NCBI GenBank assembly: GCA_016200005.1
Contig: JACQFP010000021.1
Location: 1 to 64,000, forward strand
From: Verrucomicrobiota bacterium
GTDB taxonomy: Bacteria > Verrucomicrobiota > Verrucomicrobiia > Limisphaerales > PALSA-1396
Direction of reading: 5' to 3'
Length of the DNA stretch: 64,000 nt
Positions 1-10,549 of this stretch are shown here, one piece after another. Made by a program: the position numbers and the translations under genes. Each line of letters starts with the position of its first letter. Positions within the stretch are counted from its first letter, which is position 1. The notes under the pieces were generated by a model that saw only the letters and a program-made list of their open reading frames with translations, was not told where the DNA came from and searched no databases.

Positions 1-139
1 AGACCTCCGACCTGAAATCCCTCACGCCCGCAGCCTGGGCCAAAGCCAGACGCGCCGCCATGCGTTCCGCCGCCTGATTTACTCCCGTTCCTTCGTCAGC
101 TTCCGTGCCACTCACCCAAGGCAGTCTGGCTGTCGGTTA

Positions 140-1717
140 CGTTGGACCAACCAGTTTGGTTACGACTCGGCGAAACACCTGACGAGTGTCACGGCGCCCG
201 GCGGCACCTTCACCTATACCCTCGGCGCGGCGAACGCGGCAAGTCCATTGCCGAAAAAGGTTTTGCTTGGCAATACTTCCTACATCACCAACACCTACAC
301 CTACGACAGCATGGCGCGGTTGACGGGGACGTATCTCAAGACCAGCGCGAACGTGCTGACGAACAAGCACGAATACTCTTACACCGCGGGCAATCAGCGC
401 ACGCAGCAGACGTTCATGGACGCGGCCACGTACGGTTACACGTACGACAACATCGGCCAGTTGACCAATGCGGACAGTTCGGTGGCGGCTCAGGATCGGA
501 AGTATGTGTACGACGCGGCGTGGAATCTCAATTACCGCACCAACAACACGACGACTTACAGCTTCAAGGTGGACGGGAAGAACCAGTTGACCAACGCGAC
601 GCCAGTCGGCGCGCAGACCTACGATGACAATGGCAACGTAACCTTCAGTGCGGGCATCGCGGATGGTTTCAGCTACGACGACGAGAATCAATTGCAGAAT
701 TGGTATCATTATGACGGCGGCTACAACGGCGACGGGTCGCCCACAGATTCCAAGGACAAGCGGACGGAGTTCATTTACGATGGCAAGGGGCGGTTGCGCA
801 AGCGGGTGGAGTACACGACTGACGGTTCTGTTTGGATCGTTTCTTCTGAGACGCGCTACCTCTATGACGGGATGCGGGTGATTCAAGAACGCAACAGCAG
901 CAACACGCCGACGGTCGCTTATACGCGCGGGACTGATCTGAGCGGGAGCTTGGAAGGTGCGGGTGGAATTGGTGGATTGTTGGGGCGCAGCCACGCGTAT
1001 CAATCGGGCAGTGGCAGTTGGACGAACCATAACGTTTATCATGCCGACGGGAACGGGAACGTGACGTACATGCTGAACAGCTCCCAATCGGTGGTAGCCA
1101 ATTACCGGTATGATCCGTTTGGAAACGCAATCACCGCAAGCGGCACGCTGTCCGGAGCGAACGTGTATCGTTTTTCGAGCAAGGAGATTCATGTCAACAG
1201 CGGGCTGTATTACTACGGCTACCGCTTCTATCATCCCAATTTGCAGCGGTGGCTGAACCGAGATCCCATTGGGGAACGAGGCGGCCTAAATCTTTTTGAG
1301 TTTGCGGGAAATGATCCAGTAGACCTGTTCGACCGCTTTGGCTTGTTCGTCACGCCGACCGATTTTCCACCCGGAGGCGGCCACAATACGGTCATTTGTT
1401 TTAACGGAAAGCTCACCATCCAGAACAAAAACAAAGGTCCTGATAGGAAATGCACAGGCGAACATGAGTATTCGCACTTGCAGGATTGGTTAAAGCGATA
1501 CGGCGATGGCGTCTGCAAAGGTCAGAATAATGGCACTGTACCCGTAGGCGGCGACGGATACCTTGAATTTCTTCGCCAGTCAGAATGCAAGGCCTTCAAA
1601 GCAGGCAAGAAGTGCCGTGAAGATCTTCTGACGCACTGCAAAAAAAAGGATAAGGCTGCCATTCAAGCGGGAATTGACCGTGACAACCAAGGCTTGAAGG
1701 ACAACAAGTGCAATTAA
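140..1717 (+). CDS. RHS repeat-associated core protein, 5'-truncated, with HExxH C-terminal tip
   Basis: RHS/YD-repeat shell protein. YD-type repeats (TYDSMARL, YTYDNIGQL, YVYDAAWNL, FIYDGKGRL) run into the RHS core signature (YRYDPFGN, SGLYYYGYRFYHP, RWLNRDPIGE, NLFEFAGNDPV). RHS-like codons (WTNQFGYDSAKHL) are in frame from about base 140, ahead of the first usable start (TTG 248), so the 5' part is missing or was replaced. A different reading frame closes with a stop at 75-77. After the core, about 120 variable residues follow, as in polymorphic toxins. They are Cys-rich and contain HEYSH (about residue 406 counted from TTG 248) with SECKAF downstream, an HExxH...E zincin-like pattern. I infer a metallopeptidase-type effector tip. 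The next gene is a small lipoprotein that could be its immunity partner. The RHS call is secure; the tip function is inferred. Confidence 0.85.
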   Translation, partial: RWTNQFGYDSAKHLTSVTAPGGTFTYTLGAANAASPLPKKVLLGNTSYITNTYTYDSMARLTGTYLKTSANVLTNKHEYSYTAGNQRTQQTFMDAATYGYTYDNIGQLTNADSSVAAQDRKYVYDAAWNLNYRTNNTTTYSFKVDGKNQLTNATPVGAQTYDDNGNVTFSAGIADGFSYDDENQLQNWYHYDGGYNGDGSPTDSKDKRTEFIYDGKGRLRKRVEYTTDGSVWIVSSETRYLYDGMRVIQERNSSNTPTVAYTRGTDLSGSLEGAGGIGGLLGRSHAYQSGSGSWTNHNVYHADGNGNVTYMLNSSQSVVANYRYDPFGNAITASGTLSGANVYRFSSKEIHVNSGLYYYGYRFYHPNLQRWLNRDPIGERGGLNLFEFAGNDPVDLFDRFGLFVTPTDFPPGGGHNTVICFNGKLTIQNKNKGPDRKCTGEHEYSHLQDWLKRYGDGVCKGQNNGTVPVGGDGYLEFLRQSECKAFKAGKKCREDLLTHCKKKDKAAIQAGIDRDNQGLKDNKCN

Positions 1718-1728
1718 GGGGAATCGCC

Positions 1729-2031
1729 ATGAACTCGATTGCCGCTTGGCTGCTCATTTCGCTGACTGTCTGTTTATTGTGCTCATCGTGCTTGAAAGAG
1801 AAGACAACGACACCTGTGTCGGCTGAGTCTGAGGTGCTCGCAATGGCTAAACGAGAGTTTAGGAAGGCCGGACGCAAGGTTGAGGACTACAGGATTACAG
1901 TTGACCACCCGACTAATGACGTCTGGTGGGTGCGCTTTGATCTTGATGTGCGCTATCCTCCACCTGGAGCGAGTCACTACGTTCGGGTCGAAAAGCAGAC
2001 TGGGCGAGTAGTGTTTATGCCCGGCGAATAG
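1729..2031 (+). CDS. Small lipoprotein, candidate immunity protein for the RHS tip
   Basis: About 100 residues from ATG 1729 (MNSIAAWLL). A hydrophobic N-terminus ends in LLCSSC, a lipobox-like site, so it is probably an envelope lipoprotein. The rest (EVLAMAKREFRKAG, DYRITVDHP, VRVEKQTGRVVFMPGE) resembles small PepSY/NTF2-immunity-like domains, but I cannot assign a family. It starts 11 bases after the RHS stop on the same strand. That position is where immunity genes sit relative to polymorphic toxins. An upstream in-frame start at 1708 would overlap the RHS gene and would not begin with a signal peptide. Confidence 0.6.
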   Translation: MNSIAAWLLISLTVCLLCSSCLKEKTTTPVSAESEVLAMAKREFRKAGRKVEDYRITVDHPTNDVWWVRFDLDVRYPPPGASHYVRVEKQTGRVVFMPGE

Positions 2032-2114: not shown

Positions 2115-3909
2115 GAGCTTGTCCGCAAAACGCGCATTTTTGAAAAGGGTCGGAAAACGTCGGAGGAAGTTCCGGGCGCGGGCGGCGGCAGGGGTGGTCT
2201 TTATGGTGATCCTGGCTTTTGCAATCGCTTTTGGCCCGGCGGCGGACACACCGCTTCCCTCGTGTTTGGCCGTGGGTTGCGCGCCGTCCTTTTAGGCGGC
2301 TTGCGCCAGCACTTGTTTTTGTTCCAGTCGCGCCAGCACCCACAGGTTGTGGGTCAAGACCTGCCAGACGACCGCCAGCTCCCGATGCGCAAATCCTTTG
2401 GCCCGCAGCGGGCGCCCCAAAAATCCGTTCTTGAATATCCCGATGCGGCCTTCGGTCTGGCTGCGCCGCCGTTGCAGTTGCCCAAAGCGTTCTTCTTCCA
2501 TTCTCTCTTTGAGCCGTGCCGGGTGCTTCGGACAAATCCCGTCGTAAATTTCCTGGGCGGCCAGCAACGCCTGGTTGGCCGCGCTGCAAAAGCCCCGATC
2601 CGTGCCCAGCGCCCGGATCACTCCGACGCCGTAAGCCGCCTCCATCCGTGCCAAACTCTGCGGCAGTTGCCGCCGGTCCGCCGGCGCGCTCTCGCGATGC
2701 AACTGCCAGTCCACGATCACTCCGTCTTTTTGTTCGGCCAGCAACAGGGTGTTGCCAAATTCCACTTCCGCCCCGGCTTTGCCCCGCACGATCACGCGCG
2801 TGTCGGTTTCATACAGGCTCAGCACCTTGTCGGCGTTGTTCACTTGGCGCTCGCCAATGATGCGTTCGTGCGCCTGCTTTTGCGCGGCCGGCAAGAGCGC
2901 CAGCACGCCGTCGATCCGCCGCAACACCACCTCGGCTTGCGGGCGCGTCCAGTCGGTTTGGCCCCAGGCTTGATCCAGTAACTCCCGGTGTCGTCGCGCG
3001 TGTCCGGCCACGACTTTGACCTGCTGCTTCATCAGGCGCAGGGTTCGCTTGCGTTGTTTTTTGGAATCTTTGGCCCGGCGCGCATGGGTCATTTGCAGGC
3101 TCAAGCGGTTCATCGCTTTGAGAAAATTCTCGGGCGGCTCCATGCGCTGCTTGAGACCGTGGGCACGAATCAAGCGCGTGGCTTTCATCAAGGTTCGCAC
3201 CGCATCGCACAACAGCACCCAGTCCACCGGAAAATGAATGTTGGCTTTCAGACACGTCGTATCCACCCACACCGTTTCCAATTCGAGGGCGTGGGCCAGT
3301 TCCAAAGCCGACGCGCCCGACGGCTGCTGGGCCGCTAGGATCATTTGCTCAATCAGCGGGCGCATCGTTTCGGCCGGCAACCAGTGGGCGTAATCCTGCA
3401 AAGTGCTTTTGCCGGGCACACGCACGGCGGCCAGTTCTTCCATCCCGCAAAACCAGCGGAAGAGCGGGCACTCGGCCAGCCGCCGGCTCAGCCCGCGATA
3501 ATCTTCCCCCAACCATCCTCGGAGCACCGTGCAACGCAGGGCGCGGTAACTGTGCTGTTGATGGCCTTGCCGGGCCTTGGTTTTGGCGGCGGGAAATTGC
3601 TGGTCGTAACGCCGGAGGCTTTGTTCGACGAAACTTTTTTCCACGCCGCTCCAGAGCAGGAGCTGGTCGATGCGGCGCAGTTGCTGCTCGAAATCCTGGT
3701 AATCGACATTGCCCAGAACCACAGGCAAAGCTGGACGCAGGGTCGGTTGGAAGGGTAGGATTGGGGCGGCGGGTGAATGGTTTTTCATTAGCGTGAAAAT
3801 CATAACCCGCTGCTTTCGGGCAAAACCATTTTAATCGGTGGTTTTGCCTGATTGTTTTTGTTCCCTCAACCCGCGCCCTGATTGCCCAGGCGATTTCTCG
3901 GACAGGCTC
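2115..3909. mobile_element. Insertion sequence carrying one DDE transposase gene
   Basis: The ends are imperfect inverted repeats. The left end reads GAGCTTGTCCGCAAAAC. The right end, read inward, is GAGCCTGTCCGAGAAAT. Both are flanked by TA (2113-2114 and 3910-3911), compatible with a TA target duplication. The element is about 1.8 kb and holds one intact transposase on the minus strand, so it may be active. The boundaries are from inspection and could shift by a few bases. Confidence 0.6.
2292..3803 (-). CDS. DDE-type IS transposase (DUF772-like N-terminus)
   Basis: 503 residues, full length for this group. The N-terminal part has an InsH/DUF772-like region (RALRCTVLRGWLGEDYRGLSR, CPLFRWFCGM). 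The catalytic core includes VDTTCLKANIHFPVDW, where the Asp is the likely first DDE residue, and later a LGTDRGFCS block. The C-terminal part has RIGIFKNGFLG and FAHRELAVVWQVLTHNLW. These features fit the IS1182/ISNCY-like groups; I cannot choose the subgroup without a search. Start ATG 3803, with an alternative ATG five codons in. No frameshift is visible. Confidence 0.85.
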   Translation of the reverse strand: MIFTLMKNHSPAAPILPFQPTLRPALPVVLGNVDYQDFEQQLRRIDQLLLWSGVEKSFVEQSLRRYDQQFPAAKTKARQGHQQHSYRALRCTVLRGWLGEDYRGLSRRLAECPLFRWFCGMEELAAVRVPGKSTLQDYAHWLPAETMRPLIEQMILAAQQPSGASALELAHALELETVWVDTTCLKANIHFPVDWVLLCDAVRTLMKATRLIRAHGLKQRMEPPENFLKAMNRLSLQMTHARRAKDSKKQRKRTLRLMKQQVKVVAGHARRHRELLDQAWGQTDWTRPQAEVVLRRIDGVLALLPAAQKQAHERIIGERQVNNADKVLSLYETDTRVIVRGKAGAEVEFGNTLLLAEQKDGVIVDWQLHRESAPADRRQLPQSLARMEAAYGVGVIRALGTDRGFCSAANQALLAAQEIYDGICPKHPARLKERMEEERFGQLQRRRSQTEGRIGIFKNGFLGRPLRAKGFAHRELAVVWQVLTHNLWVLARLEQKQVLAQAA

Positions 3910-4030: not shown

Positions 4031-5350
4031 ATGTTCAAATTTCCGCTCGCCTTTACCGTGTTCGTTTTGGGCGCGACCACCATTTGTGCCAAAGATTACG
4101 CTGTTCAAACGTTCAAGAAGATACGTCTCTCCGATCAGTTCTGGGGCGAAGGCGCAAACTTTGGCGATTTCAACCACGACAACTATAAGGACATCGTCTC
4201 CGGCCCGTATTGGTATGAAGGCCCTGACTTCAAGAAGCGCCATGAATATTATCCCGCGAACAAAACATTTAAGCGCAAGAAGAATGATGGCACTGAAGAA
4301 GCCATCCAAGGTTTTGAAGGCGCTCTCGGCACAAATAACGCCTACTCTGACAATTTTTTCGCATTTGCCTACGACTTCAACAACGACGGTTGGGACGATA
4401 TTCTGATCTTGGGATTCCCAGGCCAGGACGCGTCATGGTACGAAAATCCGAAAGGTCGCGAAGGCCTCTGGCAACGACATAAGGTGTTTGATGTCGTTGA
4501 CAATGAATCGCCAACTTGGGGCGATTTGACTGGCGATGGTAAACCGGAACTCATTTGCAACTCTGGCGGCTACTTCGGTTTCGCCGAACCGGACTGGTCC
4601 GACACAACCAAACCGTGGACGTTTCATCGCATCTCACCGAAAGGGGACTGGCAACGCTTCACTCACGGGCTTGGTTATGGCGACGTCAATGGAGATGGCC
4701 GGAAGGACATTCTGGAACTTGATGGTTGGTGGGAGCAACCGGCCTCGCTCAGCGGTGATCCCGTTTGGACAAAACACCAGTTTCCCTTCGCACCCGGTCA
4801 TGGCAGCTCCCAGATGTACGTTTACGATGTCAACGGCGACGGCCTAAATGACGTCATCACCAGCCTGGCAGCTCACGGCTACGGCCTAGCGTGGTATGAA
4901 CAAGTCAGGGAGAACGGAATCATCACTTTCAAACAACACTCCATTCTCAACAAAGAGCAGAAACCCAGCCCCAATAAATACGGCGTCACCTTCTCCCAAC
5001 TTCACGCCGTTGATCTGGTGGACATGGACGGCGACGGCCTGAAAGACATCATCACCGGCAAGCGCTTCTGGGCCCACGGACCTGCAGGCGATCCCGAACC
5101 TAATGCGCCAGCCGTGCTCTATTGGTTCAAGCTCGTACGCAACAAAGACAAGTCGGTCGATTTTATCCCCTACCTCATCGACAACGACTCCGGCATCGGC
5201 ACACAAGTTGTGGCGGGCGACATCAACGGCGATAAGCGGCCCGATGTTGTCGTCGGCAACAAAAAGGGGACCTTCGTTTTTTTGCAACAAACGAAAAAGG
5301 TTAGCAAAGCGGAGTGGGAGAAATCCCAACCGAAACTGCTTTCGCCCTGA
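4031..5350 (+). CDS. Secreted FG-GAP/VCBS repeat protein
   Basis: 439 residues. ATG 4031 is followed by a signal peptide (MFKFPLAFTVFVLGATTICA). The mature part is a series of FG-GAP/VCBS repeats with Asp-rich calcium-binding loops: DFNNDGWDD, DVNGDGRKD, DVNGDGLND, DMDGDGLKD and DINGDKRPD. This predicts a seven-bladed propeller outside the cytoplasm. In Planctomycetes and Verrucomicrobia such proteins often sit beside the large PVC dehydrogenase, as here: the next gene follows within 100 bp on the same strand. No catalytic site is evident. The role is probably binding, or part of a secreted catabolic system. Confidence 0.85.
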   Translation: MFKFPLAFTVFVLGATTICAKDYAVQTFKKIRLSDQFWGEGANFGDFNHDNYKDIVSGPYWYEGPDFKKRHEYYPANKTFKRKKNDGTEEAIQGFEGALGTNNAYSDNFFAFAYDFNNDGWDDILILGFPGQDASWYENPKGREGLWQRHKVFDVVDNESPTWGDLTGDGKPELICNSGGYFGFAEPDWSDTTKPWTFHRISPKGDWQRFTHGLGYGDVNGDGRKDILELDGWWEQPASLSGDPVWTKHQFPFAPGHGSSQMYVYDVNGDGLNDVITSLAAHGYGLAWYEQVRENGIITFKQHSILNKEQKPSPNKYGVTFSQLHAVDLVDMDGDGLKDIITGKRFWAHGPAGDPEPNAPAVLYWFKLVRNKDKSVDFIPYLIDNDSGIGTQVVAGDINGDKRPDVVVGNKKGTFVFLQQTKKVSKAEWEKSQPKLLSP

Positions 5351-5446
5351 GCCAAAGAGCAGTCTGCTTTCCCGAATTAAGAGCGTTTGCGTCAGAAAAA
5401 ATACGTGCTCTTTCTGGCGACTTGGCAGATAATCCGCCCACCCTTT

Positions 5447-8400
5447 ATGAAAGATCAACTATTCCGTGCCTGCGGTTTCTTTTCCCTCGCCTTTTTCGTT
5501 TGGATTTCGCCGATTAATGCTGCCACGCTCGAAGTCATTGCGCCCGTCGGAAAAGATGGCAAACCTCTCAACCTAGATTTCGAAGTCGGCACGCTCAAAG
5601 ATTGGACTGCCACCGGCAAAGCCTTCGAAGGTCAACCCATCAAAGGGGATACCGTCACCAAACGGCGCACGGACATGCGAAGCCAGCACACCGGAAACTT
5701 TTGGATCGGCACTTATGAAATCGCCGGCGACGAACCTCAAGGCACGCTGACTTCCGTTCCCTTCAAAGTCACTCAACCTTTCGCCAGTTTCTTAGTTGCC
5801 GGCGGCTTGTCGCCCAACACCCGTGTCGAACTCGTCCGCGCCGACACCGAACGGATCTTCTTCAAAACCTCGGGCACCGATAGCGAAAATCTGCGTCCGG
5901 TCGTCGTCGATCTTCAACCCCACCTCGGCAAGGAAATCTTTATTCGCATCCTCGACCAAGCGAGTGGCGGGTGGGGACACATCAACTTCGACGACTTCAA
6001 GCTCTACGCCCAACGACCGAAATTTGACAACGAACTCGACCCCGCCAAAGTCGCCGCTGATGCTCCGCCCGCCGATGTTGTGCCTTACGCCGGTCTGTCG
6101 CCCGCAGACGCTGCGAAGTTTGCCACGCTACCGCCCGGTTTCAAAATGCACGTCTTTGCCGGCGAGCCGGACATTGTGCAACCCATAGCCTTCTGTCTCG
6201 ACGATCGTGGTCGCGTTTGGGTCGCCGAAGGACTCACCTATCCGATTCGCGCGCCGGAAGGGCAGGGCAAAGACCGCATCCTCGTCTTCGAGGACACCAA
6301 CGGCGATCACAAGTTCGACAAGCGCACCGTCTTCATGGAAGGCCTCAACCTCGTCAGCGGACTCGAATATGGCTTTGGCGGAATTTGGGTCGGTGCCGCT
6401 CCTTACCTGATGTTCATTCCGATTCAAGACAGCGACGCGCCCAAGCCCGCTGGTCCGCCGCAAATCCTCCTCGACGGTTGGGATTACAAACGCGACACGC
6501 ACGAAACTTTGAACACGTTCACCTGGGGGCCGGACGGCTGGCTATACGGTTGCCACGGCGTTTTCTGTCCTTCGCACGTCGGCAAGCCCGGCGCGCCTGA
6601 GAGCGAGCGTCAATGGATGGACGCTGGGGTCTGGCGTTACCATCCCACCAAGCACATCTTTGAAGTCTTCGCGGAAGGAACGAGCAACCCATGGGGCATC
6701 GACTTCGATGAACACGGGCAACTTTGGGAGGAAGCCTGCGTCATCCCGCACCTCTGGCACATGATCCAAGGCGGCCGTTACCTGCGCCAAGGCGGCGAGC
6801 ATTTCAGCATCAACCGCGACGAAACCGCGCGCAACGAAAAGCATCGTGAGAACGGCAGCCGCAAACCGATCTTCCCCTACGTCTATGAAGACATCCAATC
6901 TGTCGGCGATCACGTCCACTACGCCGGCAACAAAGGCCCGCACGCCGGCAACGCGCGCTCCGACGCCGCGGGTGGCGGCCACGCCCACGCCGGCATGATG
7001 GTTTATCTCGGCGACAGTTGGCCCACCGAATATCGCGGGAACCTTTTCATGGGCAACATCCACGGCCAGCGGCTCAACATGGACATCCCCGAGCGCAGCG
7101 GCTCCGGTTACGTCGGCCATCACGGCAAGGACTTTCTGAACTTCAACGACACTTGGTCGCAAACGCTCAACCAACTCTATGACCAGGACGGCTCGGTTTA
7201 CATCATCGACTGGTACGACAAGAACCAATGCCACCACACCAATCCTGATGGCCATGACCGCTCCAACGGCCGCATCTACAAAATCGTTTACAACGATCGG
7301 AAGGTGACGAAGGTGGATTTGCAGAGAGAACCGGACGAGGCTCTTCTGTTTATGCAATGGCGGCAAATGGGGTTACGGTCCGAGTGGGCTGCCAGACATG
7401 CGCGTCGGATTCTTCAAGAGCGCGCTGCAAATGGTAAACTCAAAACCAACATCCCCGAACAAATTGCCAAAGAAAAACTAAGGATGCCGATGAACGAAGT
7501 TGAAGCTCTCCACTTCCTTCAAGTTCAGCATTCCACGATCGGAATTCTGGAAGATGAAGCGTTGAAAATCCTGCAGCGTTCCGATTACGAATTCCTCCGG
7601 GCCTGGACAGTTCAACTCATTTGTGAAAGCAAGAGCCTATCTACAGAAGCCTCAAAAGAATTCGTCCGCCTCGCGCGTGAAGACAAATCGCCCGTCGTCC
7701 GACTTTACCTCGCTTCCGCGCTTCAACGTCTGTCCCCGGAACAACGCTGGGACATTTACACCGCGTTGCTCCAGCACAGCGAAGACGCCAACGACCACAA
7801 TATCCCGCTGATGGTTTGGTACGGTGGCGAAGTCCTCGCAGCAACACAGCCGGTCAAAGCATTGTCGCTCGCGGTCACAGCCAAGCTGCCGAAGATTCTC
7901 AATTTCACCACGCGCCGCATCGCACAACTCGGCACTGCCGAAGCGCGCGACCTCATCGCCGAGACGCTGGCCAAGCTTGACGATTCATCCAAACAACTCG
8001 ACATGCTCACCGGCTTGAGCGCCGCGCTCAAAGGCCAGCGCAGTGTGCCGATGCCACAAGGCTGGGAAAAGGTTGAAGCCAAACTATCCGCCAGTTCAAA
8101 TCCGCAAATTCGCGCCCTTGCTCAATCGCTGTCACTGACATTCGGGAGCGCGAATGCGCTCGCGGCGTTGAAGAAAACGCTGATGGATGAGTCCGCCGAA
8201 GCCGGTGCCCGCCGCACCGCGCTCGATTCGTTGCTGAGCACTCGCGACGCGTCGTTGCCGCTGTTGCTTCAGCAGTTACTCAAGAGCACGGACCTTCGCG
8301 GCCAAGCGATTCGCGCTCTGGCCGGCTACGACGATTCAAACACTCCCGATGCCATCCTCGGAGTTTACGCATCGCTCGGCACCGGCGAAACGCGCGACGC

Positions 8401-9070
8401 GCTGAACACGCTCGCCTCGCGCGCTGCGTTCGCCAAACCGATGCTTGCATCCGTCGAAAGCGGAACGATTCCGCGCAATGCGCTCACCGCCGAAATCATC
8501 CGTCAGTTGCGCAACTTGAAGAACGCCGACATCGACCAGCAGCTTCAAAAAGTCTATGGCACGATTCGTGACAGCAGCGCCGACAAGAAAAAGGAAATCG
8601 AGAAATACAAACGCATTTATTATGCGGGCGGTTCACAGCCGGGAATCGCTTCGCGCGGTCGCGCAGTGTTCGACAAGATTTGCGCCCAATGCCACACGCT
8701 CTTCGACACCGGTGGCAAAGTCGGGCCGGACCTCACGGGTTCAAATCGCGCCGACCTTGACTACATTTTGCAAAACATCCTCGATCCGAACGCCGTCATC
8801 CCGAATGATTATCGAGCTTCCACCATCGAAACCAAGGATGGACGCAGCCTCATTGGTATCGTGAAGCAACAGGACGACAAGTCCGTCACCGTCGCGACGC
8901 AGACCGAGACGCTGGTTCTGCCGCGAAACGAAATCCAATCACAGCAGCAAAGCGAACTCTCGATGATGCCGGAAGGATTGCTCGCTCCTTTGGCCGACCA
9001 GGAAATCCGCGATTTGATTTACTACCTCAGCCGTCCCGGTCAAGTTCCCCTGCCAGCTTCCGCGCAATAG
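5447..9070 (+). CDS. Large secreted PVC-type dehydrogenase with HEAT repeats and cytochrome c domain
   Basis: 1207 residues from ATG 5447, which begins a good signal peptide; the upstream TTG 5387 extension does not. Order: a short N-terminal carbohydrate-binding-like region; a beta-propeller of the 'putative membrane-bound dehydrogenase' class (FCLDDRGRVWVAEGLTYP, ILVFEDTNGDHKFDK, NPWGIDFDEHGQLW); a helical HEAT-like region (about residues 640-1000); and a C-terminal heme domain with CAQCH (Cys1079, Cys1082, His1083) and QEIRDLIYYLSR. This architecture is typical of Planctomycetes and Verrucomicrobia. I infer periplasmic oxidation of a sugar or alcohol with electrons passed to the c-type heme. 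The substrate is unknown. A sulfatase follows 9 bp later. Confidence 0.88.
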   Translation: MKDQLFRACGFFSLAFFVWISPINAATLEVIAPVGKDGKPLNLDFEVGTLKDWTATGKAFEGQPIKGDTVTKRRTDMRSQHTGNFWIGTYEIAGDEPQGTLTSVPFKVTQPFASFLVAGGLSPNTRVELVRADTERIFFKTSGTDSENLRPVVVDLQPHLGKEIFIRILDQASGGWGHINFDDFKLYAQRPKFDNELDPAKVAADAPPADVVPYAGLSPADAAKFATLPPGFKMHVFAGEPDIVQPIAFCLDDRGRVWVAEGLTYPIRAPEGQGKDRILVFEDTNGDHKFDKRTVFMEGLNLVSGLEYGFGGIWVGAAPYLMFIPIQDSDAPKPAGPPQILLDGWDYKRDTHETLNTFTWGPDGWLYGCHGVFCPSHVGKPGAPESERQWMDAGVWRYHPTKHIFEVFAEGTSNPWGIDFDEHGQLWEEACVIPHLWHMIQGGRYLRQGGEHFSINRDETARNEKHRENGSRKPIFPYVYEDIQSVGDHVHYAGNKGPHAGNARSDAAGGGHAHAGMMVYLGDSWPTEYRGNLFMGNIHGQRLNMDIPERSGSGYVGHHGKDFLNFNDTWSQTLNQLYDQDGSVYIIDWYDKNQCHHTNPDGHDRSNGRIYKIVYNDRKVTKVDLQREPDEALLFMQWRQMGLRSEWAARHARRILQERAANGKLKTNIPEQIAKEKLRMPMNEVEALHFLQVQHSTIGILEDEALKILQRSDYEFLRAWTVQLICESKSLSTEASKEFVRLAREDKSPVVRLYLASALQRLSPEQRWDIYTALLQHSEDANDHNIPLMVWYGGEVLAATQPVKALSLAVTAKLPKILNFTTRRIAQLGTAEARDLIAETLAKLDDSSKQLDMLTGLSAALKGQRSVPMPQGWEKVEAKLSASSNPQIRALAQSLSLTFGSANALAALKKTLMDESAEAGARRTALDSLLSTRDASLPLLLQQLLKSTDLRGQAIRALAGYDDSNTPDAILGVYASLGTGETRDALNTLASRAAFAKPMLASVESGTIPRNALTAEIIRQLRNLKNADIDQQLQKVYGTIRDSSADKKKEIEKYKRIYYAGGSQPGIASRGRAVFDKICAQCHTLFDTGGKVGPDLTGSNRADLDYILQNILDPNAVIPNDYRASTIETKDGRSLIGIVKQQDDKSVTVATQTETLVLPRNEIQSQQQSELSMMPEGLLAPLADQEIRDLIYYLSRPGQVPLPASAQ

Positions 9071-9079
9071 GACGTCGCC

Positions 9080-10549
9080 ATGAAACTGATTTCCTCTTCC
9101 ATTGCAGCACTGTTGGCGCTCTCGCTTGTTTCTACTCCAATTTCCCTGCACGCCGCCGCACCCGAAAAACCCAACATCATTTTTATCCTCGCTGACGACC
9201 TCGGCTACACCGACGTCGCCTGTTACGGCAACAAATATTACGAGACGCCGAACATCGACCGCCTGGCGAAACAGAGCATCCGCTTCACCAGCGGCCAGAC
9301 GTGCGCGCCGAACTGCCAGCCCACCCGCGCCGCGCTCATGAGTGGCCAATACATGCCGCGCACCGGCGTCTATACCGTTGGCAGCATTGACCGTTTCGAC
9401 TGGCGCAGCCGTCCGCTTCGGCCCGTGGACAATGTGGAGAAACTTCCGCTCGATAAAATCACGATCGCGCAATCGTTGAAGAAGGCTGGTTACGCCACCG
9501 CCATGTTCGGCAAATGGCATTTGGGCGATGATGGACCGCATCATCCTGGGAAGCGCGGCTTCGATGAGGCGATTGTCAGCGCCGACAAACACTTCGATTT
9601 CAAAACCAATCCGCGCACCGATTATCCGCCAGGCACTTATCTCGCCGATTTCCTGACGGACAAAGCCACCGACTTCATTCGCCGTCATAAGGACGGTCCG
9701 TTCTTTCTCTACCTGCCGCACTTCGCCGTTCATTCACCCCACGAAGCGAAGACCGGTCTCATCGCGAAGTTCAAACCCAAGCCGCCCGCCGGCGGTCATC
9801 ACGACCCAACCTACGCCGCCATGATTTACAGCGTCGATGAAAGCGTGGGCCGCATCGTCGCGCTGTTGGATGAATTGAAGCTCGCCGAAAAAACACTCGT
9901 CATCTTCTCCAGCGATAATGGCGGCGTCGGGGGATACGAACGCGAAGGCATCAAGAAGGCCAATGGCATCACCGACAACGCACCGTTGCGCGGCGGCAAG
10001 GGAATGCTCTACGAAGGCGGCATTCGCGTGCCTTACATCTTCCGCTGGCCCGGCAAGATTCCCAAAGGCACCGTTTGCGACACGCCCATCAACAGCGTCG
10101 ATCTCTACCCAACGCTCCTCGAAGTTGCAGGCGCGTCACCGTCGCCCAATTACCCGCTCGATGGCGAGAGCTATCTCAAACTGCTGACGAGCGGCGGCAA
10201 AGCGACGCTGAATCGCGAAGCGATTTACTGGCACTTCCCCGGCTACCTCGGCGCGGGAGAAAATACCTGGCGCACGACACCCGTGGGCGCAATTCGCTCT
10301 GGCGATTGGAAACTGCTGGAATTCTTCGAGGACGGTCGGCTCGAACTCTACAACCTGCGCGATGACCTCGGCGAAAAAAACAATCTCGTGGCCAAGCTGC
10401 CCGACAAAGTCAGGGAACTGCACGCGAAGCTGGTGGCTTGGCGTCAGGAACTAAAAGCCCCCATGCCAACGAAGAACACCGAGCAACGCCCGCCCGCCAA
10501 ACCCGAAAGGGGCGCGAAGAAACGCAACAAGGCGGACGATGGGGAATGA
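9080..10549 (+). CDS. Secreted sulfatase (arylsulfatase A-like)
   Basis: 489 residues with a signal peptide ending near LHAAA. Metal-binding NIIFILADDLGYTD is followed by the formylglycine motif CQPTR (Cys79), the residue oxidised to formylglycine by a sulfatase-modifying enzyme. VFSSDNGG, HLGDDG and KWHLG blocks complete the alkaline-phosphatase-like fold. It hydrolyses sulfate esters, probably of a sulfated polysaccharide or glycoside, in the periplasm or outside the cell. It lies 9 bp after the PVC dehydrogenase, so the FG-GAP, dehydrogenase and sulfatase genes look like one operon for sulfated glycan use. The Lys-rich C-terminal tail has no obvious domain. Confidence 0.93.
   Translation: MKLISSSIAALLALSLVSTPISLHAAAPEKPNIIFILADDLGYTDVACYGNKYYETPNIDRLAKQSIRFTSGQTCAPNCQPTRAALMSGQYMPRTGVYTVGSIDRFDWRSRPLRPVDNVEKLPLDKITIAQSLKKAGYATAMFGKWHLGDDGPHHPGKRGFDEAIVSADKHFDFKTNPRTDYPPGTYLADFLTDKATDFIRRHKDGPFFLYLPHFAVHSPHEAKTGLIAKFKPKPPAGGHHDPTYAAMIYSVDESVGRIVALLDELKLAEKTLVIFSSDNGGVGGYEREGIKKANGITDNAPLRGGKGMLYEGGIRVPYIFRWPGKIPKGTVCDTPINSVDLYPTLLEVAGASPSPNYPLDGESYLKLLTSGGKATLNREAIYWHFPGYLGAGENTWRTTPVGAIRSGDWKLLEFFEDGRLELYNLRDDLGEKNNLVAKLPDKVRELHAKLVAWRQELKAPMPTKNTEQRPPAKPERGAKKRNKADDGE

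Follow-up and report, generated by a model that had tools for sequence, protein, structure and literature searches.

A candidate zincin tip and a candidate lipoprotein immunity gene at an interrupted RHS locus of a Verrucomicrobiota bacterium

Introduction

Protease toxins that act in the periplasm and are countered by exported immunity proteins are known from the T6SS of proteobacteria, and to our knowledge few families of them have been described. VgrG2b, a zinc metallopeptidase with a glutamate as third ligand, exerts its toxicity in the periplasm, and the immunity proteins that counter it reside in the periplasm, are membrane-bound or are lipoproteins (PMC6899460; this and the other sources are cited here from excerpts). 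RHS proteins carry zincin domains of their own, Tox-MPTase1-5, for which the table in the excerpt names no immunity protein, and Imm65 is given there as the only lipoprotein immunity protein of the collection (PMC3482391). PepSY propeptides are intramolecular inhibitors of M4 proteases, and their fold may inhibit partners in trans (PMC4282423). Our searches of open-access literature on PepSY together with immunity or polymorphic toxins, including the excerpt of PMC12419801, turned up no paper on a PepSY immunity protein, and those on Rhs toxins and immunity in Verrucomicrobiota turned up work on a T6SS DNase; by these searches, the RHS tips of this phylum appear hardly studied.

Here we analyse the start of a 64,000-nucleotide stretch of DNA, termed the window throughout, from a Verrucomicrobiota bacterium (GCA_016200005.1, contig JACQFP010000021.1), in which a first-pass annotation had proposed that an RHS tip with a zincin-like motif is followed by a candidate lipoprotein immunity gene.

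Results

The tip of the RHS protein

An open frame at 2-1717 on the forward strand represents the 3′ portion of an RHS gene and matches the Rhs_assc_core model TIGR03696 (E=1.5e-21). After this core, positions 1331-1714 translate into the 128 amino acids of the tip (Table 1), among which seven cysteines were counted in the printed sequence. The HExxH...E pattern that had been read in this Cys-rich context was borne out: HEYSH spans residues 45-49, Glu85 lies within SECKAF, 36 residues past His49, and both are conserved in all ten tips that were eventually collected. When the tip was shuffled 200,000 times, HExxH arose in 702 cases and was accompanied by a later Glu in 481, so the combination is unlikely to be due to chance. 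The tip has a GC content of 0.497, lower than that of the RHS remnant (0.558) and of the window as a whole (0.58). The genome of the window holds six RHS core loci, and by reading the other five carry different tips; like cores with differing tips within one genome are characteristic of RHS polymorphic toxins. At three of these five loci, small lipoprotein-like or membrane-bound proteins (by reading) stand behind the RHS gene, have no Pfam match and are candidate immunity proteins in their own right (L061:2016-2492; L056:2686-3072; L060:2257-2688).

Table 1. Positions of the features described in the text, in window coordinates.
Feature	Position	Strand	Evidence
Right end of IS66-type element: transposase C-terminal end and terminal repeat	1..141	+	100% match to the final 141 bases of contig C16
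Probable IS66 target-site repeat in RHS gene	142..149	.	Position relative to the element as in the 8-base repeat of C16 and C82
3′ remnant of RHS (YD-repeat) gene, ending in RHS core	142..1330	+	Open frame 2-1717; TIGR03696 at window 1109-1345, over cut-off
Tip: candidate zincin toxin domain, 128 aa, Cys-rich	1331..1717	+	Frame, alignment, AlphaFold2 model
HEYSH (HExxH), tip residues 45-49	1463..1477	+	H, E and H invariant in 10/10 tips; in model helix 37-57
Glu85, candidate third zinc ligand	1583..1585	+	Invariant in 10/10 tips; in model helix 77-101
Candidate immunity gene: 100-aa lipoprotein, mature from Cys21, PepSY/cystatin-like	1729..2031	+	Homologues behind tips in G588 and G395, remote in G740; fold matches
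Neighbouring transposase (DDE_Tnp_1), second mobile element, outside the system	2292..3803	-	PF01609, E=1.4e-5, over cut-off

An AlphaFold2 model of the tip built from two sequences (pLDDT 74.8, pTM 0.66) contains a beta hairpin at residues 20-31, a helix at 37-57 with HEYSH and a helix at 77-101 with Glu85, and in this model the order of hairpin and two helices fits a gluzincin. Comparison of the same two-row model with the PDB by Foldseek placed no zincin among the best 50 of 85 matches at E<=10 (best E 1.5), and a second fold comparison returned mostly helical chains (best Z 5.8) and no zincin. As the model rests on two rows, no conclusion was drawn from the absence of zincins among these matches.

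Relatives of the tip

The tip had no family match in Pfam, NCBIfam, PHROGs, PADLOC or the PDB sequences. The first-pass annotation had suggested a profile search against peptidase domains of polymorphic toxins; none of the ten tips matched any Pfam family at E<=5, and in this they differ from Tox-MPTase1-5, whose models we take to be held in Pfam. Three PDB matches of the tip profile (E 0.005-0.007) were to VP1 capsid chains and were taken as chance.

With the single sequence as query, a search of 146 relatives found the tip in its own genome only, and a search of 387 genomes of the phylum added one strong match, in genome G395 (E=1.2e-31); 29 genomes scored at E<=0.1 in the latter search, from which its own genome and G395 alone were kept. 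A motif scan of L015-L043 returned L015 and one chance pattern in L017. Among genome contigs one locus was found, on Victivallis vadensis contig CAMCYG010000076.1, which is the G395 locus, and the viral contigs and plasmids searched held no relative. Profile searches then matched three of 337 genomes of the class of G395 (G395, G588 and G642), and three of 293 genomes of the order of the window, its own included, with G099 as a new member; G039, also considered from this search, proved to be another protein. Nine of 327 genomes of the phylum matched at E<=0.05, and five of these were kept (its own, G395, G256, G312 and G370), G470 being read and dropped and G187, G210 and G423 left out. Two further tips, both in G740, were reached through the lipoprotein profile described below rather than by a tip search; they carry HExxH..E and matched the other tips in an hhalign profile-profile comparison (E=3.8e-6, probability 87%, 59 columns).

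In total, ten tips were found in nine genomes belonging to at least two classes of the phylum, and wherever the upstream sequence could be read they form the C-terminus of RHS-type proteins. The ten-row alignment has C41, H45, E46, H49, P71, E85, A88 and C95 invariant and C23 nearly so; every row thus combines HExxH with a conserved Glu as candidate third ligand, the pattern of a zincin/gluzincin motif. This alignment grew by iteration, and G642 (E=0.0015), G312 (1.2e-4) and G370 (0.0175), which are weak by score, were kept for their full motif.

The tip of G588 lies in a 268-amino-acid protein (L046:1444-2250, reverse strand) with a scrap of RHS core and an internal signal-peptide-like stretch, and is perhaps an exported stand-alone tip. 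The G256 tip (L063:1016-1758) is headless, with no clear start, and shares four bases with a gene of another family whose product of 154 amino acids looks exported.

A lipoprotein gene recurs behind the tips

The next gene starts 11 nt behind the tip stop and encodes a small putative lipoprotein of 100 amino acids, in line with the earlier proposal: by reading, the product begins with a hydrophobic stretch that runs to Cys21 (LCSSC). Its Cys at -3 is unusual and departs from the strict lipobox pattern. In G588 a 96-amino-acid protein lies 14 nt behind the tip and shares 27% identity with the lipoprotein of the window in a 95-column alignment (pairwise E=6e-10). A four-row profile of the lipoprotein found seven loci, four of them new, in six of 176 genomes of the order of the window; two of the new loci lie in G740, each beginning within the stop codon of an RHS gene with an HExxH..E tip (4-base ATGA overlaps). 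An eight-row profile found four loci, three of them new, in four of 174 genomes of the other class. One of these three, the G395 copy, stands directly behind its tip in a broken frame, with signal part and body in different frames. The G740 copies are remote homologues, and a profile-profile comparison of the lipoproteins gave a match at E=5.9e-8. Weak matches of the lipoprotein to PAG, PsbQ, DruH and ribosomal eS7/L14 were taken as chance.

The lipoprotein therefore stands directly behind an HExxH..E tip at five of 11 distinct loci (the window, G588, G395 and two in G740). No RHS core or tip motif was seen near the other six (G050, G111, G063, G760, G421 and G563) in the stretches read around them, which covered 17 kb for G050, the whole 6.6-kb contig for G063 and about 3 kb for the others; G050 and G111 are apparently the same locus, with a shared neighbour. 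The earlier reading had been made to depend on the lipoprotein family not being common away from RHS genes, and the answer is divided: the family is rare in both genome sets, yet more than half of its loci have no RHS neighbour in the stretches read. These lone copies may be orphan immunity genes, or they may encode lipoproteins with some other function. Two of them, in G563 and G421 (L079:299-2177; L078:1498-2637), lie among small membrane or lipoprotein genes, possibly in immunity islands.

Viewed from the other side, eight tips, that of the window included, were found independently of the lipoprotein search, and three of them have this lipoprotein family behind. Another three (G099, G256 and G370) are followed, in overlap or within 12 bases, by a different protein with an N-terminal hydrophobic stretch (by reading), and the remaining two (G642 and G312) have no clear partner gene directly behind.

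Fold of the lipoprotein

A PepSY domain consists of a helix and an antiparallel sheet of four strands. A single-sequence model of the mature lipoprotein, of modest confidence (pLDDT 68.4), has one helix, at 12-26, and four strands. Its best fold matches were designed cystatin folds (Z 8.1 and 7.7), followed by the C-terminal domain of the PepSY protein YpeB (Z 6.7, 64 aligned, rmsd 3.0), the PepSY protein YpmB (Z 6.0, 60 aligned, rmsd 2.8), the putative lipoprotein CD1622 (Z 6.0, 59 aligned, rmsd 3.2), affimers and cystatins (Z 6.0-5.3) and chain B of an Aspergillus extracellular metalloproteinase entry (Z 5.5, 66 aligned, rmsd 3.2), although Z values of 6-8 for such a model can reflect a common arrangement. 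Chain B of that entry is presumably the propeptide of the enzyme. The model thus aligns with YpeB, YpmB, CD1622 and a second chain of a metalloproteinase entry, while the match by sequence is weak: PepSY (PF03413) was hit by one of eight lipoproteins, at E=0.014 and below the 24-bit cut-off of Pfam.

This resemblance to inhibitors and PepSY domains bears on the substrate of the tip. HExxH and a Glu alone leave the substrate unfixed, and the N-terminus of the partner would bind it to the envelope, so the tip could be a metal-dependent enzyme whose substrate is peptidoglycan or some other envelope component instead of protein, with the lipoprotein still its immunity protein. We regard this as unlikely, given the kind of fold that the partner model resembles and the finding that the tip sequence matched no peptidoglycan enzyme.

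An IS66 element explains the missing 5′ end

The loss of the 5′ part of the RHS gene had been attributed to a displaced tip cassette, as in RHS tip exchange. This was not upheld. Base 1 of the window is base 1 of contig C21, and the first bases belong to an IS66-type element (Table 1): window 1-146 matches the start of contig C82 at 99% identity, and the end of C16 carries the end of an IS66 transposase (PF03050, E=6.4e-88). RHS sequence begins straight after the element, and the loss of the 5′ part is therefore explained by an IS66 insertion within the RHS repeats together with the end of the contig inside that element. An N-terminal delivery domain, as expected of an RHS polymorphic toxin, would have lain in the part cut off. 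An 8-base target repeat is usual for IS66. The IS66 copy of C16 and C82 share one 8-base flanking repeat and thus represent one insertion, whereas the window copy is flanked by a different 8 bases and is thus a separate insertion, the left junction and partner 8-base copy of which were sought in the assembly and not found. C16 was considered as the upstream half of the RHS gene and rejected, as its flank pairs with C82 and the 9.5 kb read to the left of its IS66 copy showed no RHS sequence. Arrays of displaced tips are nevertheless present in this group, with RHS fragments and further tips stacked behind a tip-lipoprotein pair (L044:5998-6720; L076:138-1520, 1749-2687; L074:1541-1846), though they do not account for the 5′ end missing here.

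With IS66 inserted upstream of the core, the toxin is probably not made whole or delivered from the window copy, while the candidate immunity gene is intact. A second transposase follows about 260 bases behind the lipoprotein gene. Further downstream, window 4031-10549 encodes a protein with FG-GAP repeats and, by reading, a large protein that bears a cytochrome-like CxxCH close to its end and a protein resembling sulfatases. A pair enclosed by two mobile elements could be debris, the tip being without a role or the locus a decaying RHS remnant, or the lipoprotein could be an orphan immunity gene; the broken frame of the G395 lipoprotein and the G256 tip without a start would fit such decay. 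We give this account little credence, however, since the tip and lipoprotein frames of the window are intact and all motif residues have been kept.

Discussion

We consider it reasonably probable that the window encodes an RHS-borne zincin toxin tip and a lipoprotein immunity protein that act outside the cytoplasm. To this extent the first-pass annotation stands, carried by a motif present in all ten tips, by the pairing at five of 11 loci and by the cystatin/PepSY-like model of the lipoprotein; the displaced cassette gives way to the IS66 insertion and the contig end. What was computed is the motif, its conservation, the tight gene order, the recurrent pairing and the fold class of the lipoprotein model. 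The strongest evidence that tip and lipoprotein may work together is a gene order that is common across classes and was recovered from both ends, from the tip and from the lipoprotein.

We propose that the tip would be a small, exported, gluzincin-like zinc metallopeptidase with an HExxH...E motif, braced by disulfides, and would form the toxic end of the RHS protein, an exported zincin being the likeliest activity because of the motif and the cysteines. It would cleave proteins outside the cytoplasm, as the conserved cysteines and the lipid-anchored partner suggest, with the periplasm of a competing cell as the likeliest site. The lipoprotein would be the immunity protein, tethered to the cell envelope, and the inhibitor-like fold of its model points to a mechanism in which it binds in or close to the active site and so inhibits the peptidase: it may be a PepSY/cystatin-like inhibitor that does in trans what the propeptides of thermolysin-type enzymes do to their own protease.

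The closest likeness is to the C-terminal domain of VgrG2b with PA0261 and to Tpe1-Tpi1 (Pseudomonas, Acinetobacter and Salmonella arizonae), zinc peptidase toxins of the periplasm in which an HExxH and Glu motif is followed directly downstream by an immunity gene, as it is here by a candidate one, the product being exported there and a lipoprotein in some enterobacteria (PMC6899460). Those toxins are carried on VgrG and are often annotated as DUF4157, whereas the window tip is carried on RHS and its family had no Pfam match; moreover, the cysteines stressed in the excerpt are in their immunity protein, while here they are in the candidate toxin (PMC6899460). With Tox-MPTase1-5 and other zincin tips of RHS polymorphic toxins the window tip shares the place of an HExxH domain at the RHS C-terminus (PMC3482391). 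Imm65, the immunity protein of Tox-JAB-1, is likewise a lipobox-anchored immunity protein of an RHS toxin (PMC3482391); the window lipoprotein is a candidate for that role and belongs with another toxin and to another family.

Another possible explanation is that the HExxH domain serves the RHS protein as a self-processing protease, without being a toxin, and that the lipoprotein is a PepSY-type folding helper or maturation factor. Processing metallopeptidase domains are known in phage-tail-like systems, and the tip resembles the PVC-metallopeptidase (HExxHxxQ-E) in combining HExxH with a polar residue three positions further along (Asp in six of the ten tips) and a Glu in a later helix (PMC3482391); that propeptides of this kind also assist folding is stated in a title cited in PMC4282423. 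However, the PVC-type domain mostly precedes the variable toxin and serves its release, as described in the excerpt (PMC3482391), whereas the window tip is the last domain of its protein and is itself variable, being confined to its own genome among the 146 relatives and replaced by other tips at the five other RHS loci. This makes self-processing quite improbable, and we continue to prefer a toxin tip with a lipoprotein antidote.

The tip domain appears to be a previously unnamed family of a known kind, and its immunity protein may be a trans-acting inhibitor of the propeptide type. A bolder proposal, which we put forward tentatively and hold to be somewhat less probable than its negation, is that the antidote is a lipid-anchored, PepSY/cystatin-like propeptide-type inhibitor encoded by a separate gene, such that the built-in safety catch of gluzincins would now shield the cell surface from an RHS-delivered, disulfide-braced zincin, and the pair would represent a new class of toxin and immunity protein. 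The five small RHS zincin families of 2012 appear in the excerpt without a named immunity protein (PMC3482391), and the pair in the window would set a protease tip beside its likely antidote. It comes from a phylum whose RHS tips have hardly been studied and provides a testable idea of how a cell may be shielded against a protease acting at its surface.
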